The translations under genes were made by a program, and so were the position numbers. A stretch of DNA of 57,275 bases from a virus: positions 1 through 57,275 of the IMG/VR virus record IMGVR_UViG_3300029199_000004. One strand, given 5' to 3'. The notes beneath the pieces are model-generated. The model saw nothing but the letters and a program-made list of their open reading frames with translations. It was not told the origin of the DNA and ran no database searches. The stretch's first letter is position 1, and the number at the start of each line of letters is the position of its first letter. Positions 14,668 to 55,786 of this stretch are shown here, piece after piece.

Positions 14668-14684
14668 TCCAACTGTCAGTTGAC
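14668..14684. promoter_or_regulatory. operator-like palindrome before the holin genes
   Basis: TCCAAC-TGTCA-GTTGAC matches the genome-wide palindrome TTCAAC-N5-GTTGAA with two mismatches. TTGACA inside it could serve as a -35 element. It lies between the tail operon and the membrane proteins at 14764. A small hairpin (ACCGGA / TCCGGT) follows at 14703-14722. Confidence 0.45.
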
Positions 14685-14763
14685 AATTCAATAATCGGGT
14701 GAACCGGATTGTTCAGTCCGGTAACCTTCGGGCAACTGAAGCGTGAGCTGCCGAGACTGCCCT

Positions 14764-15129
14764 ATGGAGCGAACCACCCAAGCCACCAATGCCCTGGTGG
14801 CAACCTCGATCACCTTGTGGGGGATCGCCACCGGTCTGAGTTACGAAGTCCTTCTCGCGGGCTTTGCCGGCGGCCTGGTCTCTCTCTCGTTCCTCCCTCC
14901 CATGGGCATCTGGCGTCGAATCTGGACGCCGGTCACCGCCACTCTCACCGCGGGCTACACCGCCCCGATCGCAGCTCACTACCTTGCCTCGATGCTGTCC
15001 GGGATCGACATGCTTGCCTCGCTCGTCTTCTCGGCGTTTTGCCTGGGCCTGGCCGCGCAATTCCTGATCCCGATCGCGATCAAACGAGCACAGAAGAAGG
15101 CTGAAACCATCGGGGAGCCCCAGCCATGA
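14764..15129 (+). CDS. membrane protein, putative holin
   Basis: A 121-residue protein with three predicted transmembrane segments at about residues 10-45, 58-80 and 83-108, a short polar start and a basic tail (KRAQKKAETIGEPQP). This layout suits a class I holin, which forms lethal lesions in the cytoplasmic membrane at lysis. GTG 14743 would add seven residues, including two cysteines; the ATG is preferred because the extension is atypical, although neither start has a strong ribosome site. It overlaps the next membrane protein gene by four bases. The assignment rests on topology and context. Confidence 0.6.
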   Translation: MERTTQATNALVATSITLWGIATGLSYEVLLAGFAGGLVSLSFLPPMGIWRRIWTPVTATLTAGYTAPIAAHYLASMLSGIDMLASLVFSAFCLGLAAQFLIPIAIKRAQKKAETIGEPQP

Positions 15130-15413
15130 CATTGGATTCCGCCCTGATCCTATTCAACTCTGCCGCGGCCATCGTGGCGCTCTGGTCGTCGATCTGCGCG
15201 ACCAACCACATGAGTCGCAAGACCCCACTGGCGATCCGCCTGGCGTTCATTCTGATCGGTGTCGGGGCTGCTGCAGCGCTGCTGGCGCCCGGCTACCTGG
15301 GGCGCGCTCCGACGAACGCGGAGTTGTTGCTGGTGACAGGTGTGGCGCTGCTGGCCGTAGCCGACCGTCGTCGTCGGCACAGCCGCAGGTTGGGAAGGGA
15401 AGTCAGGAGCTGA
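15126..15413 (+). CDS. small membrane protein, second holin or antiholin candidate
   Basis: The 95-residue product has hydrophobic segments at about 5-25, 37-57 and 66-80 and a strongly basic end (ADRRRRHSRRLGREVRS). It is coupled to the previous gene by an ATGA overlap. Adjacent small membrane genes of this kind often form a holin/antiholin pair. The endolysin and spanins lie elsewhere in this genome, so the lysis role is inferred only from topology. Confidence 0.5.
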   Translation: MTLDSALILFNSAAAIVALWSSICATNHMSRKTPLAIRLAFILIGVGAAAALLAPGYLGRAPTNAELLLVTGVALLAVADRRRRHSRRLGREVRS

Positions 15414-15524
15414 TTTTCCGCTTCCTTAGATATTGAAGTCACTTGCGACTAATTGGCTACGCTGAGTATGCAGTGGGCTCTGTGGTCGCGCCGGCAAGTC
15501 GACGACATACGAGAGGGTGACATT

Positions 15525-15848
15525 ATGGAAAGCCAAGGTCTGATGAATGCGGCAAAGGCACTTCAGGAATCCGAGTTGGCGTGGGTGCCGCAGTTCTTGA
15601 GTGAGTTCAAGGGGGATGCAGAAGCGCTCAAGAAGTTTGACAGTGCCCCCGAGGAATACATCCGATCGCGAGGTTACGACCTCCCTGATGGATTCCACGT
15701 TCATTACATTGACGAGAACGGCGAATACCACCCACGAGAAGATAATCTGTCCCCGGGAGACTCCGGGTTTCGCTTGGAGGCCCGGGTTGATCATGGGAAC
15801 GTGGCCCTAGGCATTTGCATCTATTGCCCGGATAGCTGCAACAAGTAG
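15525..15848 (+). CDS. NHLP-leader-like small protein with a Cys-rich end
   Basis: The 107-residue protein starts at ATG 15525 behind GAGAGGGTGACATT; an upstream extension has no ribosome site. The central part (ALKKFDSAPEEYIRSRGYDL, PDGFHVHYIDENGE) resembles the leader domain shared by nitrile hydratase alpha subunits and NHLP-type peptide precursors, in which a short acidic helix is followed by GY-x-LP-x-G and a strand. The C-terminus is GICIYCPDSCNK, with three cysteines. No modifying enzyme or exporter is visible nearby, so a peptide-natural-product role is speculative. It stands alone between operons, like a moron gene. Confidence 0.6.
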   Translation: MESQGLMNAAKALQESELAWVPQFLSEFKGDAEALKKFDSAPEEYIRSRGYDLPDGFHVHYIDENGEYHPREDNLSPGDSGFRLEARVDHGNVALGICIYCPDSCNK

Positions 15849-15925
15849 GGAGTCGAGCGCCCCCCTGAGGCTTGATACCTAAATTCCATCACACGCCAAG
15901 ATGACATGTTGTATCCACCCCCGCC

Positions 15926-16762: not shown

Positions 16763-16792
16763 ATCCTAATCAACCAATAGTTGAATGGTCAA
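16763..16792 (-). promoter_or_regulatory. leftward promoter with operator in its spacer
   Basis: On the minus strand TTGACC (16787-16792) and TAGGAT (16763-16768) are 18 bases apart. The spacer is occupied by the palindrome ATCAAC-CAATA-GTTGAA (16769-16785 on the plus strand). The promoter faces the gene starting at 16723. A protein on the palindrome would block RNA polymerase. The stop codon of the gene at 16770-16982 also lies within it. Confidence 0.7.
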
Positions 16793-17020: not shown

Positions 17021-17037
17021 TGCAACTTATAGTTGAA
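17021..17037. promoter_or_regulatory. operator-like palindrome
   Basis: TGCAAC-TTATA-GTTGAA differs from the consensus palindrome by one base. A half site, ATTCAAC, lies at 17001-17007. On the minus strand TATAAG overlaps it and could be a -10 element (with TTGCGT 17 bases upstream) for the gene starting at 16982. Confidence 0.6.
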
Positions 17038-17383: not shown

Positions 17384-18538
17384 ATGGCCACGATCAGAAC
17401 GCGCAAGAACCGGGATGGGAAGGTGATGTACACCGCCCAAATTCGGATCAACAAGGACGGGGTGCAAGTCTATCAGGAGAGCCAGAGCTTCGAGCGAAAG
17501 AAGGCCGCCGAGGTCTGGGCGAAGCGCCGCGAGACGGAGCTGAATGCTCCTGGTGCGATCGAGCGGATGAAGACTTCGACCACGACGCTCTCGGACATCA
17601 TCGAGCAGTATCTGGAGGAAGTTGGTAAAGCCAGGCCGCTCGGTAAAACGAAGGAAGCGACGCTGCGCTGGATCGGCCGGAGCTACCTCGGTCAGCTCAC
17701 TGACGTGGAGATCACCAGTCAGGCGCTCGTTGACTACGCCCTTTGGCGGATGGAGGAGGAGGGTGGCGCCGTGAAGCCGCAGACGGCGGGTAATGACCTG
17801 GCCCACCTCGGTTCCGTCCTGTCACTCGCTAATGCCGCCTGGGGCTACGAGATCGACCCCACCGTGATGATGCGCGCCAGGATGGTGCTGAAGGGGCTCG
17901 GTTACAAGATGAAGAGTCGGGAGCGCGATCGCCGGCCGGAGCTGGACGAGCTTGACCGGTTGATGACGATGTTCTGCCGCAGCCATGCTTCCCGGCCCAG
18001 CTCTATGCCCATGGCGAAGATCGTAGCTTTCGCGCTGTTCAGCACTCGCCGGCAGGAGGAGATCGTCCGCATCCGGTGGTCCGATCTGGACGAGAAGCGC
18101 CAGGCCGTGCTGGTGCGTGACATGAAGAACCCTGGTGACAAGTGGGGCAACAACGTGTGGTGCCACCTTCCGGACGAGGCGTGGGCAATCATCCATAGCA
18201 TGCCGCGGGTCTACGATGAGATTTTCCCCTACACGGTCGACGCCATTCAGGGGGCTTGGATTCGCGGGTGCAAGATGGCGCTGATTGAGGACCTGAACTT
18301 TCACGATCTTCGCCATGAGGGCGTGAGCCGACTGTTCGAGATGGACTGGGATATCCCGCGCGTTGCGTCGGTGTCCGGTCACCGCAACTGGAACTCGATG
18401 CGGCGCTACACCCACTTGCACGGACGGGGTGATAAGTACGCGGGCTGGCAATGGCTGCCGAAGGTGTTGGAGGCGAAAGCGGTGTTCGGCGAGTGGGTGG
18501 ACCGCAAGAAGAGGTCAGCGAAGGCGGCGGCCGTTTAG
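17384..18538 (+). CDS. int: tyrosine integrase
   Basis: This 384-residue site-specific recombinase integrates and excises the prophage. The start at ATG 17384 follows GAGGG and matches a typical integrase N-terminus (MATIRTRKNRDGKVMYTAQI), a small arm-binding domain. A SAM-like core-binding domain spans about residues 65-170. The catalytic domain shows the box I arginine (STRRQEEIVRIRW), the Lys region (MKNPGDKWGNN), HDLRHEG (His and second Arg), GHRNWNS and the nucleophile in MRRYTHL. All expected catalytic residues appear present. Its 3' end overlaps the convergent prtN-like gene by 24 bases. It shows the phage is temperate. Confidence 0.95.
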   Translation: MATIRTRKNRDGKVMYTAQIRINKDGVQVYQESQSFERKKAAEVWAKRRETELNAPGAIERMKTSTTTLSDIIEQYLEEVGKARPLGKTKEATLRWIGRSYLGQLTDVEITSQALVDYALWRMEEEGGAVKPQTAGNDLAHLGSVLSLANAAWGYEIDPTVMMRARMVLKGLGYKMKSRERDRRPELDELDRLMTMFCRSHASRPSSMPMAKIVAFALFSTRRQEEIVRIRWSDLDEKRQAVLVRDMKNPGDKWGNNVWCHLPDEAWAIIHSMPRVYDEIFPYTVDAIQGAWIRGCKMALIEDLNFHDLRHEGVSRLFEMDWDIPRVASVSGHRNWNSMRRYTHLHGRGDKYAGWQWLPKVLEAKAVFGEWVDRKKRSAKAAAV

Positions 18539-18790
18539 CTGGGCCTCTTCCTTCACCGCCGCCGCGTGACGCTCGTCGATGTACTTGGCCAGGTCGGTGA
18601 GGAAGATTCCCTTGGCACTCTTCTGCGTGCCGGCTTCCATCCGGGTGATCGGAATCTGGATGGTGCCGGCGTTCGCCTTGCGCTGGAACTGGTCGACGGT
18701 GAGGTGACGGAAGTAATCCTCGCACACTCGGTCGAGCGGGATGACGGCGAGTCCGTTGTACTGAGCCATCAGCAGAAACAGCGTGTTCAT
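18515..18790 (-). CDS. PrtN-like pyocin activator family protein
   Basis: The 91-residue protein matches the Pseudomonas PrtN family over its whole length: MNTLFLLMAQYNGLAVIPLD, VCEDYFRHLTVDQFQRKA, PITRME and LTDLAKYIDERHAAAVKE. PrtN activates pyocin genes during the SOS response by binding P-boxes; phage copies may control late genes or interfere with host pyocins. It is transcribed from a promoter at 18829-18858 whose spacer is filled by an operator, so it should be silent in the lysogen. The ribosome site is weak. The family call is firm; the role in this phage is inference. Confidence 0.88.
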   Translation of the reverse strand: MNTLFLLMAQYNGLAVIPLDRVCEDYFRHLTVDQFQRKANAGTIQIPITRMEAGTQKSAKGIFLTDLAKYIDERHAAAVKEEAQLNGRRLR

Positions 18791-18828: not shown

Positions 18829-18858
18829 AGTATATTCAACCATCAGTTGAATTGGCAA
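18829..18858 (-). promoter_or_regulatory. prtN-like gene promoter filled by a perfect operator
   Basis: On the minus strand TTGCCA (18853-18858) and TATACT (18829-18834) are separated by 18 bases. Within that spacer lies the perfect palindrome TTCAAC-CATCA-GTTGAA (18835-18851). This is the cleanest promoter and operator composite in the window. Confidence 0.8.
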
Positions 18859-21485: not shown

Positions 21486-21515
21486 AGTATATTCAACCAA
21501 TAGTTGAAATGTCTA
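21486..21515 (-). promoter_or_regulatory. leftward promoter filled by a perfect operator
   Basis: On the minus strand TAGACA (21510-21515) and TATACT (21486-21491) are 18 bases apart, with TTCAAC-CAATA-GTTGAA (21492-21508) filling the spacer. The geometry is identical to that of the prtN-like gene promoter. It drives the genes from 21454 leftward. Confidence 0.8.
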
Positions 21516-22080: not shown

Positions 22081-22292
22081 GGGGTGACCCTCGAAAGGGC
22101 ACAGCGGTCGAATGTGCGTTGATAGCTCCGCAGATCGGAGCCGACGCCGTGTCGAACTTGAGGGGAAGGGCAGTTGTGCGGCACGGCGGCCGGCTGGATC
22201 GGTCCCGCGACCACGGGCGCCAGCAGCGCCCAGGTCAGGAACAGCGTGCAGAAGGCCGCGGTGTCGCCAGCAGCGCGCTGAGCGGGAGTCAT
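22077..22292 (-). CDS. small membrane-anchored protein, unknown
   Basis: A 71-residue product whose ATG overlaps the stop of the MazG-like gene. It has a hydrophobic segment at about residues 10-32 (TAAFCTLFLTWALLAPVVAG) and a polar, basic tail with two Cys. The start is supported by coupling to the upstream gene and its end by overlap with the next. Function unknown. Confidence 0.45.
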   Translation of the reverse strand: MTPAQRAAGDTAAFCTLFLTWALLAPVVAGPIQPAAVPHNCPSPQVRHGVGSDLRSYQRTFDRCALSRVTP

Positions 22293-22759
22293 CAGAAGCG
22301 CTTCCCGTTGGCTTGGGCGCGGTTCTCCAGCTTGTGATCGGCACGCTGCTGGTTGTATGCCAGCTTCTCGACCATTGCTCCTGCCAGGTCCAGGTTGCGG
22401 GCGCCGGCATAGTCGAAAATGCGGATCAGCGTGTCGGCCAGCTCGACCTCAACCGCCTTGCGGTGCGGGAGCTTGTCGTCCATCAGGTCCTTCCGCAGGC
22501 CCTCCAGCGCTTCAGACAGCTCGCTGTGCATCAGGGCAATCAGCTCCCCGTCGTTGCGCGGGGTCGGCTCGCCGGTCAGCGGGTCGTTCCACCAGCCGGA
22601 TGCCTTGGCGAGGAAGTGGCACAGCTGCTGTGCGTCGTGGATTCCGACCGAGGCGCTACCAACGGTGGATGCTTCGACCTGGTCGCACTCGGGGTCGAGC
22701 TTGGCTAGCAAGTGGTCCAGGAGGTCTTCGGCTTGTTGGGTGTTCAGGTTAGTGCTCAT
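22292..22759 (-). CDS. MazG-like nucleotide pyrophosphohydrolase
   Basis: This 155-residue protein has the all-alpha NTP pyrophosphatase signature: MHSELSEALEGLRKDLMDD (ExxE metal ligands) followed by VEVELADTLIRIFDYAG (ExxxD). Enzymes of this group hydrolyse noncanonical or signalling nucleotides; phage MazG is proposed to alter host nucleotide pools or ppGpp. The N-terminal 60 residues are a helical extension. The start ATG is placed 10 bases after an operator-like palindrome. Substrate unknown. Confidence 0.8.
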   Translation of the reverse strand: MSTNLNTQQAEDLLDHLLAKLDPECDQVEASTVGSASVGIHDAQQLCHFLAKASGWWNDPLTGEPTPRNDGELIALMHSELSEALEGLRKDLMDDKLPHRKAVEVELADTLIRIFDYAGARNLDLAGAMVEKLAYNQQRADHKLENRAQANGKRF

Positions 22760-22768
22760 GGTGGAAAT

Positions 22769-22785
22769 CTCAGCTATTGGTTGAA
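22769..22785. promoter_or_regulatory. operator-like palindrome
   Basis: Read on the minus strand this is TTCAAC-CAATA-GCTGAG, two mismatches from the consensus. It sits between two leftward genes, overlaps the stop of the upstream gene and lies 10 bases before the MazG-like start codon, leaving no room for a normal promoter. It may act as a roadblock (stoperator-like) site. Confidence 0.55.
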
Positions 22786-23209: not shown

Positions 23210-23473
23210 TCAGGCCCCCACTGCCAGAATCGGGGCTTCAGCATTGGCGGACTTCAGGTCTGCCAGCATGCGCTCCAGGGCGGCACTGGCTTCCTTGCTG
23301 TCCACGTTCAGGGTCAGCTGGGTGATCCCCATGCCGGGGGCCACGGGCTGCTGCAGGCGGTGAATGATCTCGCTGTTCATCGAGCGGTGGTTGGCCCGCG
23401 CGGTTTCCTTGATCTCATCGTGAAGAGCATGCGGCAGGCGCGCCACGAATTTGGTGATGTTCATGCGGCTCAT
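23210..23473 (-). CDS. Arc-like ribbon-helix-helix DNA-binding protein
   Basis: The 87-residue product starts at ATG 23473, overlapping the RdgC stop (ATGA). Residues 4-45 match Arc/MetJ proteins: NITKFVARLPHALHDEIKET (strand and helix A) then NHRSMNSEIIHRLQQ (helix B). These act as dimeric repressors. The rest is a helical tail that may set oligomer state. It is probably an autoregulator or modulator of the rdgC operon. Confidence 0.8.
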   Translation of the reverse strand: MSRMNITKFVARLPHALHDEIKETARANHRSMNSEIIHRLQQPVAPGMGITQLTLNVDSKEASAALERMLADLKSANAEAPILAVGA

Positions 23474-24543: not shown

Positions 24544-24560
24544 TTCAACCAACGGTTGAA
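24544..24560. promoter_or_regulatory. perfect operator upstream of rdgC
   Basis: TTCAAC-CAACG-GTTGAA is a perfect copy of the palindrome, 52 bases upstream of the rdgC start. On the minus strand TTGATA precedes it and TAACAT follows, giving a 19-base spacer promoter of moderate quality that would be blocked by a bound repressor. Confidence 0.65.
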
Positions 24561-26714: not shown

Positions 26715-26728
26715 GGTTGCAAATTCCC

Positions 26729-41877: not shown

Positions 41878-41896
41878 CTGCGTTTTCAACCACCTA

Positions 41897-44484: not shown

Positions 44485-44524
44485 GTCGAATATCGCGTCG
44501 ACAGGTTCCGCGGCCACAAGTACG

Positions 44525-44542
44525 GTTGGTTGAGTATTCAAC
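44525..44542. promoter_or_regulatory. operator half sites before the endolysin gene
   Basis: GGTTGA-GTAT-TCAACC is a perfect inverted repeat of the half site in outward orientation, unlike the standard arrangement. It lies 14-31 bases before the endolysin start codon. Confidence 0.5.
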
Positions 44543-44555
44543 CGTGAGTGGCGCC

Positions 44556-45104: not shown

Positions 45105-45106
45105 GA

Positions 45107-45148
45107 TTCAACCAATAGTTGAATAGTCACTCGTGCGGTTGGTACGAT
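45107..45148 (+). promoter_or_regulatory. rightward promoter with consensus operator over its -35
   Basis: TTCAAC-CAATA-GTTGAA (45107-45123) is a perfect operator. Its right arm supplies TTGAAT (45119-45124), and TACGAT follows 18 bases on (45143-45148). The promoter faces the methyltransferase gene at 45181. Confidence 0.7.
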
Positions 45149-45180
45149 GGCGCCTTTACGAGCCTCATGCGAGCAGTGTT

Positions 45181-46266: not shown

Positions 46267-46268
46267 GT

Positions 46269-46285
46269 TTCAACCGTTGGTTGAT
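46269..46285. promoter_or_regulatory. operator before the terminase genes
   Basis: TTCAAC-CGTTG-GTTGAT has one mismatch and begins three bases after the methyltransferase stop, 17 bases before the TerS start codon. No standard promoter is evident around it. Confidence 0.6.
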
Positions 46286-46301
46286 TATTCCGGAGATAAC
46301 C

Positions 46302-46988
46302 ATGGCCCCAAAAACGGCGCCCAAGAGACGCGGCAGACCACCAAAGGCCAAGCCTCCGGTCGAGATCGATGACGACGACCTGATTGGCTCGGTGCCGGCT
46401 GCAGATGAGGAGTCATTGGAACCGATCAGCACCGCCCTGGCGGATGTCTACGGCGGCGTTAGCGCCAGCTGGCTCGCCCAGGTTTTCGGTCACGACAAGA
46501 ACACCATCGCCAAGAAGCTCGCCAGCGCCGGCTGCGAAGTCGTTGGCCGTCGAAACGGCGGGCCGCTGTACCGCATCCCCGACGCAGCCGCGTATCTGGT
46601 GAAGCCCAAAGTCGATCTCGTCGCGTATATCAAGACGCTGCGCCCGAATGACCTGCCGCCGATGCTCAACGATGCCTACTGGTCGGCGATGATCAAGCGG
46701 CAGAAGTGGGAGGAAAACGCCCGCGATCTCTGGCGCAGCGAGGATGTGCTGAAGGTGTTCGGTGACCTTGCCATCTCGTTCAAGACGACGGCCAACCTCT
46801 GGGTGGAGGAGGTGGAGCGGATCGAGGGCCTGACGCCTGAACAGCGTCTGCTGATCACCCAGCTCACTGACCGCTTGCTGGAGAACGTCTACCACCTGAT
46901 GGTGGAGGCGCCGAAGAGCGGCAAGACGCTACCGTCGATCGCGGAAGAGGGTGCTGCCCCAGAGGGCAGTGAGGGCTCCTCCGAGTGA
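46302..46988 (+). CDS. terminase small subunit
   Basis: A 228-residue DNA-recognition subunit starting at ATG 46302 with CGGAGATAACC upstream. It begins with an AT-hook-like basic segment (KTAPKRRGRPPKAKPP) and an acidic motif EIDDDDLIGSVP, then an HTH-like domain (SASWLAQVFGHDKNTIAKKL, ASAGCEVVGRRNGGPLYRI) as in Nu1-type or DUF1441 proteins, and a helical oligomerisation region. Its stop overlaps the GTG start of TerL. The packaging site is presumably nearby but not recognisable. Confidence 0.85.
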   Translation: MAPKTAPKRRGRPPKAKPPVEIDDDDLIGSVPAADEESLEPISTALADVYGGVSASWLAQVFGHDKNTIAKKLASAGCEVVGRRNGGPLYRIPDAAAYLVKPKVDLVAYIKTLRPNDLPPMLNDAYWSAMIKRQKWEENARDLWRSEDVLKVFGDLAISFKTTANLWVEEVERIEGLTPEQRLLITQLTDRLLENVYHLMVEAPKSGKTLPSIAEEGAAPEGSEGSSE

Positions 46989-49099
46989 TCTTCGAATCCC
47001 TTGAGCAGATGATCGCAGCGTCTGCCGGTGGCATCCGACCTCCAGAACGCCTGACGGTCGCCCAGGCGGCCGAGCGGTCACGCTACCTCAACAACCCTGG
47101 CAGCTACGTCGGCTTCTGGGACAACAGCATCGCCCCGTATCTGGTCGAGCCCATGGAGGTGCTGACCAGCTTGGAATACCTCGGCATGATCTTCGCCGGC
47201 CCGGCCCGGACGGGGAAGTCTGATATGTTCTTCAACTGGCTGTGCCATACGGCGATCTTCGATCCCGCGGACATGATGCACGTCCTGATGACGCAGAACG
47301 TCGCTCGCGACTGGAGCCAGAAGGACCTTCGCCGGGCCTTTCGCCATTCGAAGGAGCTGGGCAAGACAGTTGCGCCCGGCCGGCAGAACCAGTCCACCCA
47401 CTCGATCCGCTTCCTGTCAGGCATGCACCTTCTGGTCAAGTGGCCGACCATCAGCGAGCTCTCGGGTAAGACCGTGGGCCGCAACTGGATTTCAGACTAT
47501 GACCGCATCGACGAATCCATCGACGGGGAAGGTAACGCCTACGACCTGACTGCCAAGCGCGGCCAGACATTCCGCCGCAACGCGATGACCGTTGCCGAGT
47601 CGAGCCCGGGCTACGAGATCGAGGACCCCAAGTGGGTACCGAAGACTCCGCATGAGGCGCCGCCGACGAAGGGTATCCTCGCGCTGTACAACCGTGGTGA
47701 CCGTCGCCGCTGGTACTGGAAGTGCCCTCACTGCAGGAATCCGTTCGAGCCCGATTTCAAGCTGCTGCACATTCCTGATTCGAAGGATCACGTCGAGGCC
47801 GCCGAGGCGACCGTAATGGTGTGCCCACACTGCGCCGGCATCATCTGGCATGACGGCAAGGATGGCGTGCCCGGCAAGAACGAGTTGAACCAGATCACCG
47901 AGGGTAATGCCCGGTGGGTTCGCGACGGTGAGATATGGGTGCCGCGGGAGAACCGGGTCGAAGGTTTGCCCTTCCGCTCCGACATCGCCAGCTTCTGGAT
48001 GAAAGGGCCTGCTGCCGCGTTCACTACCTGGCGCGATCTGGCGCTGAAATACCTGAAGGCGGACGAGGAGTATGAGCGCACCGGAAGCCAGGAGGCGCTG
48101 AAGACCACGGTCAACACCGACCAGGGACTACCGTTCCGGCCGAAGGGTTTGGACGAGGGGCGCCTTTGGGAAGACGTGAAGGCCATGGCGCGCGATCTCG
48201 GCGAGAAAGTGGTGCCGGAGGGGGTGCGCTTCCTGGTGGCCGCTGTCGACGTGCAAGGTGGTCGCTTCGAAGTCCAGGTCATGGGCTTCAGCGAAGGCGG
48301 GGACATCACGGTCATCGACCGCTTCGCTATCAAGAAGTCCGATCGCAAGGACGAGGACGGTGAGCGCGAGTGGGTGAAGCCTGCGTCCTATGTCGAGGAC
48401 TGGAAGCTGCTCATCGACCAGGTGATCCTCAAGACTTACCCCCTGGCTGATGGCTCCGGCCGGCACATGTCGATCAAGGTCGTGGGCTGCGACTCGGCGG
48501 GTAAGGGTGACAAGAAGAACGACAGCTCGACGACCAAGAACGCCTACCTGTTCTGGCGGATGCTGCGCGACTCGGATGGCAGCGAGTTCCCGGCAGGGCT
48601 GCATAACCGCTTCAGGCTGCTCAAGGGCGGCTCCAACAAGACCGCACCGCGGGTGCAGATCAGCTATCCGGATTCCGAGCGAAAGGACCGCAGTGCCGGC
48701 GCGCGAGGCGAGATTCCGGTGCTGATGATCAACACGCTGGCCCTCAAGGACCAGCTGAACGTTATGCTCGATCGCACGAGTGCCGGCGGCGGACGGATCA
48801 ATATGCCCGACTGGCTCCCTGACTGGTGGTTCGCCGAGATGGTGGCCGAGGTGCGCAATGCCGACGGCTGGGTGAAGAAGTCGCCGCGAAACGAAGCGTG
48901 GGACTTGCTGGTGTACGCCATTGCGCTGTCGCTCTATCGCCCGATCAAGATCGAGCACCTGGACTGGAACAACCCACCGGGATGGGCTGCAGAGTGGGGC
49001 GACAACGACCTGGTCTTCTTCCCCGAGGAGCGCAAGGCCGGTGTGATCGCTGAACCGAAGGGGCAAACTCTGGAAGAGTTGGCGGCTCTGCTCGCTTAG
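46985..49099 (+). CDS. terminase large subunit, GpA family
   Basis: The 704-residue packaging ATPase and nuclease starts at GTG 46985 overlapping TerS. Walker A is FAGPARTGKSDMFF (near residue 70). Two CPHC motifs (WKCPHCRNPF, near 242; MVCPHCAGII, near 278) form a zinc site common in the GpA family. The nuclease domain has an acidic residue in LVAAVDVQGGRFEVQVMG (near 419) and CDSAGKGDKK (near 502). Length and order match lambda gpA, which makes cohesive ends, so cos packaging is plausible. Confidence 0.95.
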   Translation: MIFESLEQMIAASAGGIRPPERLTVAQAAERSRYLNNPGSYVGFWDNSIAPYLVEPMEVLTSLEYLGMIFAGPARTGKSDMFFNWLCHTAIFDPADMMHVLMTQNVARDWSQKDLRRAFRHSKELGKTVAPGRQNQSTHSIRFLSGMHLLVKWPTISELSGKTVGRNWISDYDRIDESIDGEGNAYDLTAKRGQTFRRNAMTVAESSPGYEIEDPKWVPKTPHEAPPTKGILALYNRGDRRRWYWKCPHCRNPFEPDFKLLHIPDSKDHVEAAEATVMVCPHCAGIIWHDGKDGVPGKNELNQITEGNARWVRDGEIWVPRENRVEGLPFRSDIASFWMKGPAAAFTTWRDLALKYLKADEEYERTGSQEALKTTVNTDQGLPFRPKGLDEGRLWEDVKAMARDLGEKVVPEGVRFLVAAVDVQGGRFEVQVMGFSEGGDITVIDRFAIKKSDRKDEDGEREWVKPASYVEDWKLLIDQVILKTYPLADGSGRHMSIKVVGCDSAGKGDKKNDSSTTKNAYLFWRMLRDSDGSEFPAGLHNRFRLLKGGSNKTAPRVQISYPDSERKDRSAGARGEIPVLMINTLALKDQLNVMLDRTSAGGGRINMPDWLPDWWFAEMVAEVRNADGWVKKSPRNEAWDLLVYAIALSLYRPIKIEHLDWNNPPGWAAEWGDNDLVFFPEERKAGVIAEPKGQTLEELAALLA

Positions 49100-49121
49100 C
49101 GAATCAACTTTCGGTTTTATA

Positions 49122-49138
49122 TACGACCGATGGTTGAT
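49122..49138. promoter_or_regulatory. weak operator-like site before gpW
   Basis: TACGAC-CGATG-GTTGAT keeps the right arm but has a poor left arm. A half site AATCAAC is at 49102-49108 and an AT-rich TTTTATATA lies between. It fills the only gap in the head operon besides terminators. Confidence 0.35.
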
Positions 49139-49180
49139 ACGATTCGGCCGAACAGAACCGTATTCGCCGTCGGGGGCCGC

Positions 49181-49399
49181 ATGGCTGTAGACCTGCAACG
49201 TCAGTTGGAAGAAGCCGAGCAGGCATATCACAGCCTGATGACCGGCCAATCCGTCGCCGAATTCCGCGACCAGAACGGCGAGCTGATCCGCTACACCCCG
49301 GCCAATGCCTCAAGGCTGCTCGGCTACATCCACTCGCTGAAGTCGCAGCTGGGGCTCATTCCAGCTGGCTCCGTCGGCCCAGGGAGGGTCTGGTTCTGA
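49181..49399 (+). CDS. gpW-like head-tail joining protein
   Basis: A 72-residue protein starting at ATG 49181 behind GGGGG. It resembles lambda gpW (68 residues) in length, location between terminase and portal, and pattern: DLQRQLEEAEQAYHSLMTGQ, AEFRDQNGELIRYTPANAS and LLGYIHSLKSQLG. gpW closes the filled head and allows tail attachment. It overlaps the portal start by one base. Confidence 0.88.
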   Translation: MAVDLQRQLEEAEQAYHSLMTGQSVAEFRDQNGELIRYTPANASRLLGYIHSLKSQLGLIPAGSVGPGRVWF

Positions 49400-51072
49400 T
49401 GGACCTTTCCGCCATGGATTATCTCGACCCCCTGATCGGTGAGCTGCCGGTCAGGGAGATGGCTGCGCGGGGCGCCTACGATGCGTCCAGCCACCATTCG
49501 CGTGAGCTGTCGTTGTGGTCGTCCCCGCTGCAGTCCGCTGACATGGACATCCTCCCGGACAAGCTGGTGATGGATTCCCGTGTGCGCGACACCCTGCGCA
49601 ACGACTCCTATGTCCAGAACGGCGCGACGATCCAGAAGGATTCCATCGTCGGCGAGATGTTCCTGCTCAACAGCAAGCCGAACTACAAGGTGCTGGGGCT
49701 GGATGAGGTCTGGGCGGAAGAGTTTCAGGAGGAGGTCGAAGCCAAGTTCACTCTATACGCCGAGTCGATCCGAAATTTCCCGGACGCAGCCCGCAAGTTG
49801 ACACTCACCGGGATGGTCCGCCTGGCGGTTGGCATCCATGCGATGGCCGGCGAGGTCCTGGCGTCGGTTGAATGGATGCGCAACGGCTACCGTCCGTACC
49901 GCACTGCGCTGCAGATGCTGGACCTTGATCGGCTGAGCAACCCTCAAGGCGAGATGGACAGCCCAACCCTGCGCGGCGGCGTGCAGCGGGACAAGTTCGG
50001 TGCACCCATCGGCTACTGGATTCGCCAGGCACATCCGAGCGACTGGATGAACCCGGACGGCTACAGCTGGAAGTTCGTTCCGGCCACTCGTGGTCAGGTC
50101 ACCGGCAATCCCGGCTGGGACCGCCCGCAAATGATTCACATCGTCGATCAGTGGCGCCCGGATCAGAGCCGCGGCGTCGCCAGCATGGTCTCCGCGCTGA
50201 AAGAGATGCGGATGACCAAGAAGTTTCGCGATGTCGTGCTGCAGTCGGCGGTGCTCAATGCGAGCTATGCGGCCAGCATCGAATCCGACCTGCCCAGTGA
50301 TGTGGCGCTGGCACAGGCCGGCGGCGGCGACCCGCAAGCGCTGACCGGCTTTGCCAATACCTACCTCGGCGAGGTGGCCAAGTACGTCGGCGGGTCGCGC
50401 AACATCCGCCTCGATGGCGTCAAGGTGCCGGTGTTCTACCCGGGCACCAAGATGAAGCTGCAGAACGCCGGCACGCCCGGTGGCGTCGGTTCCGACTTCG
50501 AGGCGTCGATGCTGCGCTACATCGCAGCGTCCCTTGGGGTCAGCTATGAGCAGCTGTCGAAGGATTACAGCAGCGCCAACTACTCGAACCTGCGTGCGGC
50601 CATGGCTGAGACCGGCAAGCGCATGCGAGTGCAGAAGCGCCAGGTCGCCGACCGATTCGCCAGCACCTTCTACCGCTTGTGGCTGGAGGAGGCGATCAAC
50701 TCCGGCGAGATCACTTCGCTGCCGCGCAAGGCTCCGAACTGGTACGAGGGGCTTAATCAGGAGGCTTACAGCTCCTGCGAGTGGATCGGCGCCAGCACCG
50801 GGCAGATCGATGAGCTGAAGGAAACCCAGGCTGCGGTCCTGCGTGTGAACAACGGCCTGTCCACCCGTGAGGATGAGCTGGCCAAGCTCGGCAAAGATTG
50901 GCGCGTCGTGTTCAACCAGCTGGCTCGCGAGAAGAAAGCTGCCGAGAAGCACGAGCTGGAATTCGGCGCGGACAAGTCCAGCAAGAATCAGATGAACGCC
51001 GCCAGCGGCACCCCGAGCGATACGGGCGACGGACCACGCAGCGAAGACAAAGAGGAAAAGACCGATGAGTAA
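49399..51072 (+). CDS. portal protein, lambda family
   Basis: A 557-residue protein forming the dodecameric ring through which DNA enters. Conserved features include WSSPLQSADMDILPDKLVMD, SRVRDTLRNDSYVQNGATIQ, VRLAVGIHAMAGEVLASVEW, HIVDQWRPDQSRGVASMVSA and YIAASLGVSYEQLSKDYSSA with NYSNLRAAMAETGKRM. The length matches lambda gpB. It begins MDLSAMDYLDPLIGELP, another D-x-LIG motif. It overlaps the protease gene by eight bases. Confidence 0.95.
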   Translation: MDLSAMDYLDPLIGELPVREMAARGAYDASSHHSRELSLWSSPLQSADMDILPDKLVMDSRVRDTLRNDSYVQNGATIQKDSIVGEMFLLNSKPNYKVLGLDEVWAEEFQEEVEAKFTLYAESIRNFPDAARKLTLTGMVRLAVGIHAMAGEVLASVEWMRNGYRPYRTALQMLDLDRLSNPQGEMDSPTLRGGVQRDKFGAPIGYWIRQAHPSDWMNPDGYSWKFVPATRGQVTGNPGWDRPQMIHIVDQWRPDQSRGVASMVSALKEMRMTKKFRDVVLQSAVLNASYAASIESDLPSDVALAQAGGGDPQALTGFANTYLGEVAKYVGGSRNIRLDGVKVPVFYPGTKMKLQNAGTPGGVGSDFEASMLRYIAASLGVSYEQLSKDYSSANYSNLRAAMAETGKRMRVQKRQVADRFASTFYRLWLEEAINSGEITSLPRKAPNWYEGLNQEAYSSCEWIGASTGQIDELKETQAAVLRVNNGLSTREDELAKLGKDWRVVFNQLAREKKAAEKHELEFGADKSSKNQMNAASGTPSDTGDGPRSEDKEEKTDE

Positions 51073-52342
51073 CCTGCTGGCCTCGCGCTTCGCGAACGCA
51101 CCGGTGATGGTGAGCGACTGCAAGGCCGACTGGATGAGCAATTGCCTCGCCTCGGTATCCGCTGAGCTGAAGACGATCGAGGCTCGCGCCTCCAGCGAAC
51201 CTGTCGCCCTGGCCTATGACGACTTCTGGCCGGCTGCCGACAGTTGGATGGCGCGCTACCGCCCGTACATCGTCCAGGACGGTACGCTGCTGATCCCGAT
51301 CAAGGGCATGCTGCTGCACGACTTCGGCTACCAGCTTTATGACTGGGCAACCGGCTACGTCTACATCCAGAAGGCGTTCGAGCGCGGCATGGCCGACGGA
51401 AGCGTTCAGCGCATCGCCATGATTCTGAGCTCCGGCGGCGGCGAGGTAGCCGGCTGCTTCGATGCGGTCGACCGTGTCTTTGCGATGCGCGGCGAGAAAC
51501 CCATCCACGCCTTCGTCAATGAGCATGCCTATTCGGCTGCATACGCTTGGGCGTCAGTCGCTGACAAGATCACGATCACCCGTACCGGTGGCGTCGGTAG
51601 CGTCGGCGTGGTCACTGCGCACATGGATGTGTCGGGGTGGAACGAGAAGATCGGCATCAAGATCACCTTCATCCATGCCGGTGAGCACAAGGTCGATGGC
51701 AATCCACACGAGCCCTTGTCCGATGTGGCCAAAAACCGGATGCAGGCCCGGATCGACGGCCTCTACAATATTTTCGTATCGACAGTGGCGCGGAATCTCG
51801 CGCTCGATGAGCAGGTGGTCCGTGACACCAAAGCGCTGACCTACAGTGCCGAGGAAGCGGTAAGCCTGGGATTCGCGCACGAAATCCGAGCCTTCGATGA
51901 AGCGCTGGCCGCCTTCTCTGGCGGACTGTCACCAACCGCAGGAGAAGAAACAATGAGCACACCGGAACAAGCCGCTGCACCCGCACAGGCTGATCTGGAT
52001 GCGGCTCGCGCCGAGGGCCGGAAAGAAGGTGCCACGGCCGAGCGCGAACGCATTCAGGGGATCATGGGCTGCGACGAAGCCAAGACTCGTCGTGCCCTGG
52101 CAAACCACCTTTCGTTGAATACCGAACTGTCGGTTGATTCTGCGAAGGGCATTCTGGCTGCATCGCCCGCTGAGGACGACAAGGCCGAAGGGAATGCCGG
52201 TGGCAAGGGCAGCGCCTTTGAGCAGGCAATGGGTCAGAACAACCCCGAACTCGGCGCCGATGGCGGCGGTAACGACGAACAGGCCAGTCAGCAGACCCTG
52301 ATGCAGGAATTCCGCGCGGCCAATGGCATTGAGGGCAAATAA
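51065..52342 (+). CDS. S49 family head maturation protease fused to scaffold
   Basis: The 425-residue protein is a SppA/ClpP-fold peptidase like lambda gpC. The catalytic Ser is expected in HAYSAAYAWASVADKI (near residue 158) and the general-base Lys in HAGEHKVDGNPHEPL (near 207); GGGEVAGCFDAVDRV and GGVGSVGVVTAHMDVSG also fit the fold. The last 130 residues are a helical scaffold domain that is also made separately from an internal start at 51953. It cleaves scaffold and portal during prohead maturation. Confidence 0.93.
   Translation: MSNLLASRFANAPVMVSDCKADWMSNCLASVSAELKTIEARASSEPVALAYDDFWPAADSWMARYRPYIVQDGTLLIPIKGMLLHDFGYQLYDWATGYVYIQKAFERGMADGSVQRIAMILSSGGGEVAGCFDAVDRVFAMRGEKPIHAFVNEHAYSAAYAWASVADKITITRTGGVGSVGVVTAHMDVSGWNEKIGIKITFIHAGEHKVDGNPHEPLSDVAKNRMQARIDGLYNIFVSTVARNLALDEQVVRDTKALTYSAEEAVSLGFAHEIRAFDEALAAFSGGLSPTAGEETMSTPEQAAAPAQADLDAARAEGRKEGATAERERIQGIMGCDEAKTRRALANHLSLNTELSVDSAKGILAASPAEDDKAEGNAGGKGSAFEQAMGQNNPELGADGGGNDEQASQQTLMQEFRAANGIEGK
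51953..52342 (+). CDS. nested head scaffold protein (Nu3-like)
   Basis: An in-frame ATG at 51953 follows GCAGGAGAAGAAACA, a strong internal ribosome site at the junction between protease and scaffold domains. It would give a 129-residue Ala/Glu/Gln-rich protein (MSTPEQAAAPAQADLDAARA, EGRKEGATAERERIQGIM, TLMQEFRAANGIEGK). Lambda makes Nu3 in the same way from gene C. The scaffold guides capsid assembly and is then degraded. Confidence 0.82.
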   Translation: MSTPEQAAAPAQADLDAARAEGRKEGATAERERIQGIMGCDEAKTRRALANHLSLNTELSVDSAKGILAASPAEDDKAEGNAGGKGSAFEQAMGQNNPELGADGGGNDEQASQQTLMQEFRAANGIEGK

Positions 52343-52344
52343 CC

Positions 52345-52773
52345 ATGCACCAGCCTGACTACACCAAAGCCGGCATCGCCAGCTTCCAGAATGACTCCGT
52401 TGCCGGAGCAGTCGAGCTCTTCGCGGGCGACACGCCGGCTCCGGTGACCGATTTCGCGCTGCCTGGTGCAACCCTGGCCACTGCGGGCATCCCGGCGTGG
52501 ACTCCGATCTTCGTTGACGCGGCCACTCGCGCGGTCACCCTGGCCGTCACCGGCTCGGCTGATCCAGCGGACGACGTGAAGCCGAACGCGATCACCGTTG
52601 CTCCGGTTCCGGCCGGTAGCCCGGCCACCACCAGCGTCCCGGTTTATAAGGCCGGATCGTTCAACATCAACGCACTGAAGTGGCCGGAATCCTTCGCCAC
52701 CGAAGGCTCGAAGCTCGCGGCGTTCGATCTGGCGGCTTGCCAGATTTACGTCAAGAAGCCTTTCTACGCATAA
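52345..52773 (+). CDS. head decoration protein, gpD-like
   Basis: A 142-residue protein between protease and major capsid genes, starting two bases after the scaffold stop. MHQPDYTKAGIASFQNDSVA, LFAGDTPAPVTDFALPGATL, IPAWTPIFVDAATRAVTLAV and YKAGSFNINALKWPESFATE match the gpD-like family that trimerises on the expanded capsid and stabilises it against internal DNA pressure. Confidence 0.88.
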   Translation: MHQPDYTKAGIASFQNDSVAGAVELFAGDTPAPVTDFALPGATLATAGIPAWTPIFVDAATRAVTLAVTGSADPADDVKPNAITVAPVPAGSPATTSVPVYKAGSFNINALKWPESFATEGSKLAAFDLAACQIYVKKPFYA

Positions 52774-52788
52774 GGAGTGCGGGGAATC

Positions 52789-53832
52789 ATGTCTATCGAA
52801 ATCAGTCCGCTCGACACCAACACGCTGCTGGGCTTCTACCGGGAAGTCCCGGCGCCGAGCAACTACTTCCGCAACCTGCTGGTGTCTTCGGTCATCAACT
52901 CTGAAGACGAGTTCATCGACTTCGAGAAGCTGGTCGAAGGTCGCAAGCTCGCGCCTCTGGTGGTCCCGACTGCCCAGGGCGTGCCGATGTACAGCGAAGC
53001 CTCGCGCATGTCCCGCGTGAAGCCGGCGTACCTGAAGCCGAAGGACCCGGTCAGCCCCGGTCGCGCTATCAAGCGTCGTCCTGGCGAAGGCATGTTCAGC
53101 CCGAACAGCATGTCCCCGCGTGGCCGCTTCATGGCGATCATCGGGGACATTCTGCGCACCCACCGCAGCGCCATCGAGCGTCGTCTGGAGTGGATGTGCG
53201 CCGAGGCTGCGATCCACGGCAAGGTGACCCTTGCCGGCGAGAACTATCCGACTACCGTCGTCGACTTCGGCCGCAATGCCGACCACACCGTCGTGCTGAC
53301 TGGCGTTGCCACCTGGGACAACGTCGACGCCGATATCGTCGGTGACCTGAACACCTGGATCGAGCGCGTGCGCCGCGCTGAGTTCGGCGGCCCGGTCAAC
53401 CGTGTAACCCTCGGCAAGGATGTCGTCGACCCGTTCCTGCGCAACAAGAGCGTGCGCGAGCACCTGGACACCCAGATTCGTGGTACCAACGGCGAGCTGA
53501 ACATCGGCATCCGTACCGGTGAGTACAGCGAGCGTCTGGGCCGCCTGGGCAACCTTGAAATCTGGACCACCAGCGACTTCTACGAGCTGCCGCAGGGTGG
53601 CACCAAGGAGTTCATGCCTGCCAAGGGCGTGCTGTTGACCGGGCCGAACATCAACATGGTCGAAGCCTACGGCGCGATCCTGGACGACAAGGCCAACTTC
53701 AATGCGCTGCCGGTGTTCCCGAAGCAGTGGACCAACGACGATCCGGCCGTCACCTTCGTGATGACCCAGTCTTCGCCGATCGAGGTGCCGGTGAACCCGA
53801 ACAACACCTTGTTCGCGACGGTGTTGGCGTAA
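52789..53832 (+). CDS. major capsid protein, gpE-like
   Basis: The 347-residue HK97-fold coat protein starts at ATG 52789 with GGAGTGCGGGGAATC upstream. It matches the gpE family: LDTNTLLGFYREVPAPSNYF, LPSTFF-like region replaced here by VVPTAQGVPMYSEASRMSRV, PAYLKPKDPVSPGRAIKRRP, and RVTLGKDVVDPFLRNKSVRE with NLEIWTTSDFYELPQGG. High expression is expected; a terminator follows directly. Confidence 0.94.
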   Translation: MSIEISPLDTNTLLGFYREVPAPSNYFRNLLVSSVINSEDEFIDFEKLVEGRKLAPLVVPTAQGVPMYSEASRMSRVKPAYLKPKDPVSPGRAIKRRPGEGMFSPNSMSPRGRFMAIIGDILRTHRSAIERRLEWMCAEAAIHGKVTLAGENYPTTVVDFGRNADHTVVLTGVATWDNVDADIVGDLNTWIERVRRAEFGGPVNRVTLGKDVVDPFLRNKSVREHLDTQIRGTNGELNIGIRTGEYSERLGRLGNLEIWTTSDFYELPQGGTKEFMPAKGVLLTGPNINMVEAYGAILDDKANFNALPVFPKQWTNDDPAVTFVMTQSSPIEVPVNPNNTLFATVLA

Positions 53833-53846
53833 CGACAACCCTGCAG

Positions 53847-53869
53847 AAGGCGGCCTTGCGCCGCCTTTT
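53847..53869 (+). terminator. intrinsic terminator after the capsid gene
   Basis: AAGGCGGC / GCCGCCTT with loop CTTGC, followed by TT and TTTC nearby. It lies 14 bases after the major capsid stop and would raise the ratio of capsid to downstream products. Confidence 0.8.
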
Positions 53870-53894
53870 GTTTCAACTCCAAGGTGAATACTCC

Positions 53895-54281
53895 ATGAAA
53901 AAGTTGATTGCCGTTCACGAGATCGTGCGCAATGACGCGAAGGGTCAGCGCGAAACCGTTGCTCCGGGTAAGCAATTCAGCGGCTCTGACGAAGAGGCTA
54001 CGTTCCTGATGGGCATTGGTGCCGCCAAGCTCGCAGCTCCGGCGGTAGAGCAGATCGCACCGGCTACCACCGACAACAGCGACAACAGCGACAACAGCGA
54101 CAACAGCGACAACAGCGACAACACCAACCCGGCACGCGACCTGAGCAAGATGCTCAAGCCCGAGCTGCTGGCGATCGCTGCCGAGCTGGAGATCGAGGGT
54201 CACCAGGACATGACCGTCCCCCAGCTGCGCGAAGCCATCGAGGCCGAGGAAGCCGCGGCTGAAGAAGAGTCGATGATCTGA
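53895..54281 (+). CDS. head completion-type protein with DNS repeats
   Basis: A 128-residue protein starting at ATG 53895 behind AAGGTG. It has an N-terminal beta part (KKLIAVHEIVRNDAKGQRET), a linker of Asp-Asn-Ser triplets coded by a 9-bp tandem repeat, and a C-terminal SAP-like helical part (LSKMLKPELLAIAAELEIEG, MTVPQLREAIEAEEAAAE). Its position, after the capsid gene, is that of lambda FI, which aids packaging. It ends EESMI and overlaps the next gene by one base. Confidence 0.65.
   Translation: MKKLIAVHEIVRNDAKGQRETVAPGKQFSGSDEEATFLMGIGAAKLAAPAVEQIAPATTDNSDNSDNSDNSDNSDNTNPARDLSKMLKPELLAIAAELEIEGHQDMTVPQLREAIEAEEAAAEEESMI
54072..54125. repeat. 9-bp microsatellite (GACAACAGC)n
   Basis: Five exact tandem copies (54072-54116) and one degenerate copy. 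They encode Asp-Asn-Ser repeats in the linker of the FI-position protein. Copy number can change without frameshift, so linker length should vary between isolates. Confidence 0.9.
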
Positions 54282-54679
54282 TGAACATCCGCGAGCTGAA
54301 GCGCCGGGCTCGCCGGCAGCTGCATGATCGGATGTCCGAGCCTGCGCTTTATCTCGCGGACAGTTCTGCTGCACCAGTGGGCGTCACTGTGCGCCTGCAT
54401 CTGTCGTTCAACGAAGTGGGGGAGCTGCTGCGCGGCGGTTTCTCTGAACGGCAGGAGATCACCCCGCGCATCATTTTTCTTGGCAGCCAGGTGCAGCCGC
54501 GCCACCGCGGGATCGTGGTGACGCAGGACCTAGGGGCCTATCTGATCGAAAACGACCTGCCGCCGGATGACATTACCGTCACGGCCGAGGTCAGCAAGCT
54601 CAGCCGCAACCAGGTGATCAGCTTCGGCTGGAATCCGGATGCTCAGTACATGGGACTGGTGCCACCGGAAGGCTTGTGA
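54281..54679 (+). CDS. head-tail connector-like protein
   Basis: A 132-residue protein in the lambda FII position. It starts with a basic helix (MNIRELKRRARRQLHDRMSE) and continues in beta strands (VGVTVRLHLSFNEVGELL, ITPRIIFLGSQVQPRHRGIV). Proteins here attach to the portal-gpW complex and receive the tail. The assignment is from order and size. Confidence 0.65.
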   Translation: MNIRELKRRARRQLHDRMSEPALYLADSSAAPVGVTVRLHLSFNEVGELLRGGFSERQEITPRIIFLGSQVQPRHRGIVVTQDLGAYLIENDLPPDDITVTAEVSKLSRNQVISFGWNPDAQYMGLVPPEGL

Positions 54680-55257
54680 TGGACAGCTACGTCGTCGCGG
54701 TTGAGGGGCTTTCCAGCCTCAGCGACATCCAGAATCTGGACGAGAACATCCTGCTGCGTGCCCGACAGGCGATCAACCGCACGACCGAGCGTGCCCGCAC
54801 CCGAAGCGACAGGGAGATGCGTGAGCAGATCGCCTTCCCCGCGCGATACCTGAGCAGCCGCCTGATGGTGAGCAAGAAGGCGAGCGGGCGCAACCTGCAG
54901 GCGGTCATCACCGGCCGGGATCGCCCGACCTCGTTGGCACGGTTTGCCAAGAACAAGGACGTGTCCGCAGCGCGCCGGAAGGGTGGCGTATCGGTGACCG
55001 TCAGCCCAGGGCAGACGCGCTTCATGGGTGGCGCCTTCCTGATGCAACTGCGCGGCGGGAATCTGGGGTTGGCGATCCGGCTGAAGCAGGGGCAGTCCCT
55101 GCGCAACAAGCGGAAGCTGGCGAGCGCCGGCAAGGGCCTCTACATCCTCTATGGCCCCAGTGTCGACCAGGTCTTCCGCTCTGTCGCAGACGAGTACGCT
55201 GCACCCGATGCCGCCGAGTTTCTTGAACGTGAATTCCTTCGACTGATGGAGCTATGA
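54676..55257 (+). CDS. minor tail protein Z-like
   Basis: The 193-residue product is close in size to lambda gpZ (192). It begins at GTG 54676 overlapping the previous stop, or at ATG 54679. It contains LLRARQAINRTTERARTRSD, REMREQIAFPARYLSSRLMV and TRFMGGAFLMQLRGGNLG, which fit the prophage minor tail protein Z family. gpZ is needed for tail completion and DNA ejection. Confidence 0.82.
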   Translation: MMDSYVVAVEGLSSLSDIQNLDENILLRARQAINRTTERARTRSDREMREQIAFPARYLSSRLMVSKKASGRNLQAVITGRDRPTSLARFAKNKDVSAARRKGGVSVTVSPGQTRFMGGAFLMQLRGGNLGLAIRLKQGQSLRNKRKLASAGKGLYILYGPSVDQVFRSVADEYAAPDAAEFLEREFLRLMEL

Positions 55258-55754
55258 CCATGCCCGATCCATTCCGCCTGAGAGTCCTCAAGGCCCTGAC
55301 TTCCGCGCTAGAGGAGATCACGCCCGCCAACGGCTACGAGTTCGACCTGAGCGGCAAGGTCTTTCGGGGGCGAGGCGTTTTCGGCGACAGCGACCCTCTG
55401 CCGTTGATCAGCATCCTCGAAGCGATTGAGGAACAGCCACAACTGTCATCTCCACCTTCAGGTGAACATTCAACTGGGTCGTGGGAGCTGCTGGTGCAGG
55501 GTTTCGTTGAGGATGATGACCTCGACAACCCAACCGACCCGGCTCACCGGTTGATGGCCGAGGTGAAGAAGCGGCTCGTTGAGGAGCGTGTGAAGCAGCG
55601 CCAATACAACATCTTGGGCATGGAAGGTCGGGTCGATGAGCTTCGGATAAGCCCTGGCGTGGTGCGCCCAGCGGACGATATTTCCGGCAAAGCCTATTTC
55701 TGGTTGAGGCTCACCCCGGTGCTGGTGGAGAATCTAGCAGACCCCTACGTTTGA
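55254..55754 (+). CDS. tail terminator-like protein
   Basis: The 166-residue protein lies between the gpZ-like and tail tube genes, where lambda gpU is encoded. MPDPFRLRVLKALTSALEEI, FDLSGKVFRGRGVFGDSDPL and SILEAIEEQPQLSSPPSGEH followed by LVQGFVEDDD are typical of tail terminators, which cap the tube and stop its growth. It overlaps the gpZ-like gene by four bases. Confidence 0.72.
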   Translation: MTMPDPFRLRVLKALTSALEEITPANGYEFDLSGKVFRGRGVFGDSDPLPLISILEAIEEQPQLSSPPSGEHSTGSWELLVQGFVEDDDLDNPTDPAHRLMAEVKKRLVEERVKQRQYNILGMEGRVDELRISPGVVRPADDISGKAYFWLRLTPVLVENLADPYV

Positions 55755-55761
55755 ACGGGGT

Positions 55762-55786
55762 TTCAACCAACAGTTGCATGTTCAAC
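55762..55786. promoter_or_regulatory. operator before the tail tube gene
   Basis: TTCAAC-CAACA-GTTGCA has one mismatch; a further half site TTCAAC is at 55781-55786. It fills the gap between tail terminator and tail tube genes. Confidence 0.6.

Follow-up and report, generated by a model that had tools for sequence, protein, structure and literature searches.

The palindrome TTCAAC-N5-GTTGAA recurs along the IMG/VR virus record IMGVR_UViG_3300029199_000004 (57,275 bp, analysed whole and hereafter called the window). With a probability of about 0.82, its copies are dispersed operators of the phage's own lysogeny repressor, a 217-amino-acid (aa) helix-turn-helix (HTH) protein encoded at 43831-44484. 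At up to two mismatches, the window holds 28 copies, compared with a mean of 1.09 and a maximum of 4 in 100 dinucleotide shuffles; five are perfect, nine have one mismatch and 14 have two. An earlier note on this DNA had listed 16 sites, and our motif scan recovered them all. Its count of five perfect copies was correct, its seven one-mismatch copies become nine with the overlooked sites at 5403 and 53872, and its four two-mismatch copies are real but form a partial list of the 14, several of the others being intragenic or chance occurrences. Its statement that nearly all sites are intergenic is borne out: all but one of the 14 perfect or one-mismatch sites are centred in non-coding DNA, which makes up about 12% of the window according to gene calls from our own heuristic (p about 1e-11). 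Its description as a single palindrome captured the core and missed a direct repeat, TTCAAC-N13-TTCAAC, which occurs 25 times at up to two mismatches (2.0 expected), so that the element often comprises three half-sites. As an exact half-site, TTCAAC occurs 76 times where 30 occurrences are expected.

The window ends in an exact 101-bp terminal repeat and is, therefore, a complete circularised phage genome. Its terminase, DNA polymerase B and helicase/regulator gene order show affinity to the Casjensviridae, and matches to the 43831-44484 protein lie in integrase-bearing members of that family. By these sequence affinities, it is a temperate Casjensviridae-like phage, for which the label 'lambda-like' given earlier is loose. 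The integrase-bearing members matched are Achromobacter AchV4, Klebsiella YMC16/01/N133 (YMC16), Pseudomonas SS2019XI, Burkholderia AH2, Marinobacter PS6 and Rhizobium RHph_X2_30; a further relative compared was a 57,971-bp IMG/VR record (G001) with a terminase 90% identical to that of the window.

Conservation of the sites and their link to a regulator gene

When no motif was supplied, TCAAC-N5-GTTGA was the commonest 5+5 palindrome in the window (11 copies), AchV4 (9) and YMC16 (5), and the joint top palindrome in PS6 (3) and RHph_X2_30 (4). It was absent from the same unbiased list for Phobos, a phage without integrase and without the regulator. The earlier note had made its operator reading depend on sites at syntenic gene boundaries in related phages. 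For 15 of 16 sites in the window, the corresponding gene boundary of G001 also carries a site. On this comparison, the 15 collinear sites are not accidental, because very few such sites are expected by chance. Identity between the two genomes is 98.7% in the arms, 53% in the five central bases and 43-70% in the flanks. The arm value is inflated and does not deserve full weight, because only pairs within one mismatch of the core in each genome were chosen.

Single-sequence searches gave no useful relative of the regulator, and its relatives came from a profile search. Around regulator homologues in IMG/VR, CAAC-N5-GTTG is usually enriched, mostly at 2-7 copies per locus against 0.1-0.9 expected, and a gap of 5 is far commoner than other gaps. 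A scan of IMG/VR with the exact pattern was uninformative, giving a single match in each of the 80 contigs listed. We found no description of such sites for Casjensviridae in the literature searched, most subscription journals lying outside it; the passages found in the AchV4 and AH2 papers name repressor genes and make no mention of dispersed operators.

Several lines link the sites to the 43831-44484 protein. Among 66 distinct homologues, a site lies 5' of the regulator's own gene in 36 cases as an exact match and in 62 at no fewer than seven of eight bases (at least 7/8), compared with 7.9% and 33% of random windows of equal length. In a set of 28 records (20 terminase-selected, 8 named phages), site density per 10 kb was 1.54 with a strong regulator homologue, 0.59 with none and 0.08 with a weak one (Mann-Whitney p 0.004); the reversed-pattern control gave 0.25, 0.34 and 0.04, respectively. 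The outer half-site base is A in 57% of cases with Gln at position 1 of the recognition helix and in 7% with other residues (p 5.5e-6). This position aligns with Gln28 of the 434 repressor and Cro. Wharton and Ptashne reportedly found in 1987 that changing Gln28 to Ala in 434 repressor shifts the preference at operator position 1 from A to T; the window, with Ala at helix position 1 and T as the outer base, departs in the same direction. Together with the syntenic sites, these lines support the operator-family reading and make the HTH protein the likely binder as predicted from sequence.

Other observations weigh against this assignment. RcWhiteOak and G014 encode a strong regulator homologue and have one site each, and G018 has seven sites and no detected regulator. 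The regulator homologues were themselves retrieved by a pattern on the recognition helix, and a stronger claim of helix/operator covariation was weakened when the tree showed only two independent switches. We infer physical binding, repression, the roadblock and lysogeny itself, and AchV4 yielded no stable lysogens under laboratory conditions (PMC7996906).

The candidate repressor

The feature in question is as follows.
43831-44484, plus strand: master repressor candidate, 217 aa (phrog_2967, E 3.7e-23; HTH_3, PF01381, E 1.6e-7)

The gene lies between those for the helicase and the endolysin. Its homologues in AchV4 and YMC16 occupy the same place and are followed by an annotated excisionase. 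The protein has a 434-Cro/CI-like HTH with recognition helix VSAEAVRKWF (residues 37-46), which matches 2cro and 3jxb in structure (TMt 0.79 for both). The AlphaFold pLDDT is 91 for the whole model and 94.8 for the C-terminal domain alone. In Foldseek searches, the 26 best PDB matches of this domain (residues 80-217) were PD-(D/E)XK nucleases with probabilities of 0.97-1.00, the best E value being only 4e-3. They include Hjc, I-Ssp6803I (TM 0.55-0.61), NhoI and EcoRV, with Hjc resolvases and I-Ssp6803I closest. A Pfam search by sequence found no nuclease family in the domain, and domain searches matched no S24 peptidase domain in the protein. The domain is predicted by modelling to have a PD-(D/E)XK nuclease fold and not that of a LexA/CI peptidase. 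Inspection by eye suggests that most members lack Lys at the presumed catalytic Lys position and that the window protein carries Ser in place of the presumed Asp. The nuclease-like domain is apparently catalytically dead and, judging from the model, probably an inactive oligomerisation module; inactivation by RecA-stimulated self-cleavage is, therefore, unlikely.

Homologues with an altered helix (L131, that is RcWhiteOak, and IMG loci with VSxET or VSREA) mostly lack dispersed CAAC-N5-GTTG, and some have a related CAAC-N5-CTTG-like site 5' of their own gene. By sequence, the operator of these regulators may be shifted.

Four other genes bear on lifestyle and on DNA binding.
17384-18538, plus strand: tyrosine integrase (PF00589, E 1.2e-15), which points to a temperate lifestyle
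18515-18790, minus strand: excisionase/PrtN-like protein (phrog_1300, E 6.6e-29; PF11112)
35916-36119, minus strand: Cro-like HTH protein, with a homologue also in Phobos
36193-36465, minus strand: small regulator called Arc-like in the earlier note, with a homologue also in Phobos

A gene for an RdgC-like recombination protein is found at 23470-24492 and is also annotated in AchV4, SS2019XI and PS6.

Promoter-linked sites, three-half-site elements and start codons

The palindromic sites fall mostly at promoter-like sequences and gene boundaries, including an autoregulatory position 5' of the repressor gene itself.
43727-43754, no strand assigned: operator cluster 5' of the repressor gene, with TTCAAC at 43727, GTCAAC-agata-GTTGAA at 43738 and a half-site GTTGAA at 43675; putative autoregulation
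18835-18851, minus strand: perfect operator filling the spacer between -35 and -10 of a leftward promoter, TTGCCA-[op]-TATACT; G001 has kept the promoter and the arms, with a diverged centre
21492-21508, minus strand: perfect operator placed likewise in a leftward promoter, TAGACA-[op]-TATACT, as spacer; conserved in G001
24544-24560, minus strand: perfect operator, again as spacer of a leftward promoter, TTGATA-[op]-TAACAT (motif scan, G001 comparison, promoter inspection)
16769-16785, no strand assigned: one mismatch, in the divergent region ahead of the integrase gene (motif scan, G001 comparison)
17021-17037, no strand assigned: one mismatch, with an extra half-site TTCAAC at 17002 (motif scan, G001 comparison)
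31934-31950, no strand assigned: one mismatch, ahead of the rightward gene 31996 (motif scan, G001 comparison)
36167-36191, minus strand: operator separating the Arc-like gene from the Cro-like gene; its arm forms -35 TTGAAT, with -10 TATTCT
36565-36581, plus strand: one mismatch, start of the rightward replication block; arm forms -35 TTGACA
45107-45123, plus strand: perfect operator between the endolysin and methyltransferase genes; arm forms -35 TTGAAT, -10 TACGAT
46269-46285, plus strand: one mismatch, in the short gap ahead of the terminase small-subunit gene (motif scan, G001 comparison)
53872-53888, plus strand: one mismatch; follows a gene that ends at 53832 and precedes one that starts at 53895; its right arm, GGTGAA, is Shine-Dalgarno-like
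5403-5419, no strand assigned: doubtful one-mismatch site inside open reading frame (ORF) 5073-5459, the sole site with at most one mismatch lacking a G001 counterpart

Across aligned sites, -10-like hexamers are enriched in the gene direction at two distances from the operator centre: at +9, where the operator would occupy the spacer, and at +25 to +28, where the arm would serve as -35; the opposite direction shows no enrichment at +25 to +28. The hexamer frequencies in this test were approximate textbook values. Scanning 38000-57275 for consensus promoters and terminators gave fewer matches than shuffled sequence did, and promoter overlap is, therefore, claimed from the aligned-site test alone. 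In sequence, many sites look like ordinary sigma70-like promoter operators, through spacer or -35 overlap, and not like elongation stops.

In four genomes, the commonest spacings between half-sites are convergent N5 and direct N13, which together make up TTCAAC-N5-GTTGAA-N2-TTCAAC: the third half-site lies 2 bp past the palindrome, and half-sites repeat directly at 19 bp. The window contains the following copies.
29439-29463, minus strand: complete element TTCAAC-tatcg-GTTGAA-tc-TTCAAC, 18/18, the strongest copy; arm doubles as -35 (TTGAAT-N17-TATTAT)
55762-55786, plus strand: three half-sites, 17/18, within the 48 bp that separate genes 55754 and 55803
14668-14692, plus strand: three half-sites, 15/18, directly after gene 14428-14667
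9097-9121, plus strand: degenerate three-half-site element, 15/18, ahead of gene 9148
22761-22785, minus strand: three half-sites adjoining the ATG of gene 22292-22759 (spacing/start-codon survey)
26716-26740, minus strand: degenerate three-half-site element with AGGGAA as its middle half, adjoining the ATG of gene 26325-26714
27668-27692, minus strand: TTCAAC-catca-GAGGAA-tt-ATCAAC-cATG; middle half resembles the Shine-Dalgarno sequence of gene 27145-27666
27926-27950, minus strand: TTCAAC-catca-GAGGAA-tt-ATCAAC-type element adjoining the ATG of gene 27706-27924 (spacing/start-codon survey)
28157-28181, minus strand: element of the same type adjoining the ATG at 28156 (spacing/start-codon survey)
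28971-28995, minus strand: direct-repeat half-sites shortly 5' of the ATG of gene 28195-28953 (spacing/start-codon survey)
30486-30510, minus strand: direct-repeat half-sites ahead of gene 30184-30456 (spacing/start-codon survey)
39324-39348, plus strand: TTCCAC-caatg-GGTGAG-ta-TTCAAC-caATG after the SSB gene; ORF starts at 39351
41885-41909, plus strand: TTCAAC-cacct-AGTGAG-ta-TTCAAC-caATG, within the 34 bp that separate the DNA polymerase gene from gene 41912

The third half-site adjoins an ATG in the copies at 22761, 26716, 27668, 27926, 28157, 39324 and 41885, a subset in which the middle half, as GAGGAA, GGTGAG or AGTGAG, resembles a Shine-Dalgarno sequence. Among 62 genomes, a third half-site was found downstream in 113 cases and upstream in 78 (p 0.014), and direct repeats were found downstream in 31 and upstream in 15 (p 0.026). 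The orientation preference of the extra half-site is a modest bias and not a rule, and this test weakened a strong 'polar element' reading.

Three consecutive leftward ORFs share an identical 25-bp start region, TTCAACCATCAGAGGAATTATCAAC (27668-27692, 27926-27950 and 28157-28181), which suggests duplicated promoter/start cassettes. A degenerate three-half-site element at 52114-52138 (minus strand), inside gene 51065-52342, recurs in AchV4 (5761) and G001 (35538); this recurrence may reflect only coding conservation. In near-perfect sites of the window and G001 (window positions 5404-55763), the plus-strand base preceding the right arm is nearly always A, irrespective of gene direction, a regularity not seen in AchV4 and YMC16. 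The centre CAATA was considered as a mark of genome polarity and dropped, being strong in the window and G001 and mixed in AchV4 and YMC16.

Proposed mechanism, rival readings and known systems

We propose that the repressor reads TTCAAC-N5-GTTGAA as a dimer, as the palindromic core implies, and that further half-sites 19 bp away could be docking points for additional subunits. It would shut down its own gene and, in a lysogen, would sit on about two dozen places simultaneously. Where a site lies within or overlaps a sigma70-like promoter, the bound protein would keep RNA polymerase out; in short intra-operon gaps by start codons, it would form a roadblock to elongation or initiation. The early, replication, lysis, head and tail blocks would be silenced together and not via one OR/OL-type switch. 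Promoter exclusion is supported by the anatomy of the sites, and we infer the elongation block and the control of lysogeny. More tentative is a broader proposal, which we would not yet back at even odds: that a widespread temperate proteobacterial phage lineage silences itself through a repressor combining a 434-like HTH with a dead nuclease domain, relying on about two dozen palindromic operators and dispensing with a single switch region, and that the 19-bp-spaced extra half-site, fused to a Shine-Dalgarno sequence and start codon, yields start-codon stoperators that would block both initiation and passing RNA polymerase.

The same protein might instead be mainly an activator or a dual timing regulator, the sites being a family of middle or late lytic promoters and not a means of prophage silencing. 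The arms often coincide with -35-like TTGAAT or TTGACA with -10-like hexamers 16-18 bp off in the gene direction, and sites lie ahead of lytic genes in every block, as such a role would predict. However, the operators between good -35 and -10 hexamers at 18835, 21492 and 24544 fit repression better, a promoter-like partner is missing at some sites, and Phobos-type phages have lost the regulator gene along with the integrase, which together make this role unlikely. It is more improbable still that the main binder is the Cro-like protein, the Arc-like protein or a host factor. The first two are both DNA-binding candidates with an operator between their genes, and the Cro-like protein may share some sites; yet homologues of both, at 40% and 51% identity, persist in Phobos, which lacks the 43831-44484 protein and the sites, and the annotated host genera (Klebsiella, Achromobacter, Pseudomonas, Marinobacter and Sinorhizobium) are too diverse to favour a single host factor. 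We give least credence to elements acting in RNA, as start-associated hairpins or extended ribosome-binding sites controlling translation: several copies do end 0-2 bp 5' of an ATG with the Shine-Dalgarno-like middle half described above, but many lie in or 5' of promoter-like sequence, outside the predicted transcript, and the copies track a putative DNA-binding protein.

The operator reading has parallels elsewhere. L5-like (Cluster A) mycobacteriophages carry more than 20 immunity-repressor sites genome-wide, in promoters and short intergenic spaces; these 13-bp stoperators are asymmetric, oriented with transcription and recognised by a repressor monomer that carries two DNA-binding domains (PMC9283540). 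The window likewise has many sites dispersed in short intergenic regions and a putative repressor to match, whereas its core is a palindrome to which the added half-site lends only a modest orientation bias, its protein joins an HTH to a PD-(D/E)XK-like domain and would act as a dimer, and host phylum, repressor C-terminal domain and motif all differ. The earlier comparison with stoperators is apt for the short intra-operon intergenic sites and the modest bias, and less so for the many sites that resemble promoter operators. In SPbeta, MrpR, a recombinase-fold protein that has lost catalysis, binds SPBRE, a repeated, intergenic and promoter-linked 15-bp motif derived from 9 ChAP-seq peaks (PMC10516654). 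The window element is also repeated, intergenic, promoter-linked and paired with one putative master repressor, of 434-like HTH plus PD-(D/E)XK-like architecture in contrast to the tyrosine-recombinase fold of MrpR, and with about two dozen sites. T1 and Citrobacter phage Stevie, proteobacterial siphophages, carry a 22-bp repeat in sixteen to twenty mostly intergenic copies, already likened to stoperators; unlike the window motif, it is asymmetric, oriented, found in lytic phages and has no role assigned (PMC4319613). The repressors of 434, lambda and P22 (XRE/HTH_3) and CB of N15 and phiKO2 share the HTH fold, the recognition-helix register and a palindromic operator of similar length. Their operators are clustered in OR/OL, with five sites in two regions for phiKO2/N15 CB (PMC4997575). 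The window protein lacks a LexA/CI-type C-terminal domain. By analogy, the window system would work like L5 stoperators and SPbeta SPBRE/MrpR and lacks defining features of both.

A genome-wide layout of repressor sites is known from a few unrelated viruses, namely the actinobacterial L5-like phages and SPbeta. The window would add a third, unrelated version in proteobacterial phages, bringing together an operator, a putative repressor and natural repressor-less relatives of the Phobos type. The apparent reuse of a nuclease fold in the repressor parallels the reuse of a recombinase in MrpR. The repressor-operator pair predicts immunity groups in Casjensviridae, and the set would make it testable why some temperate phages silence their genomes from so many sites.

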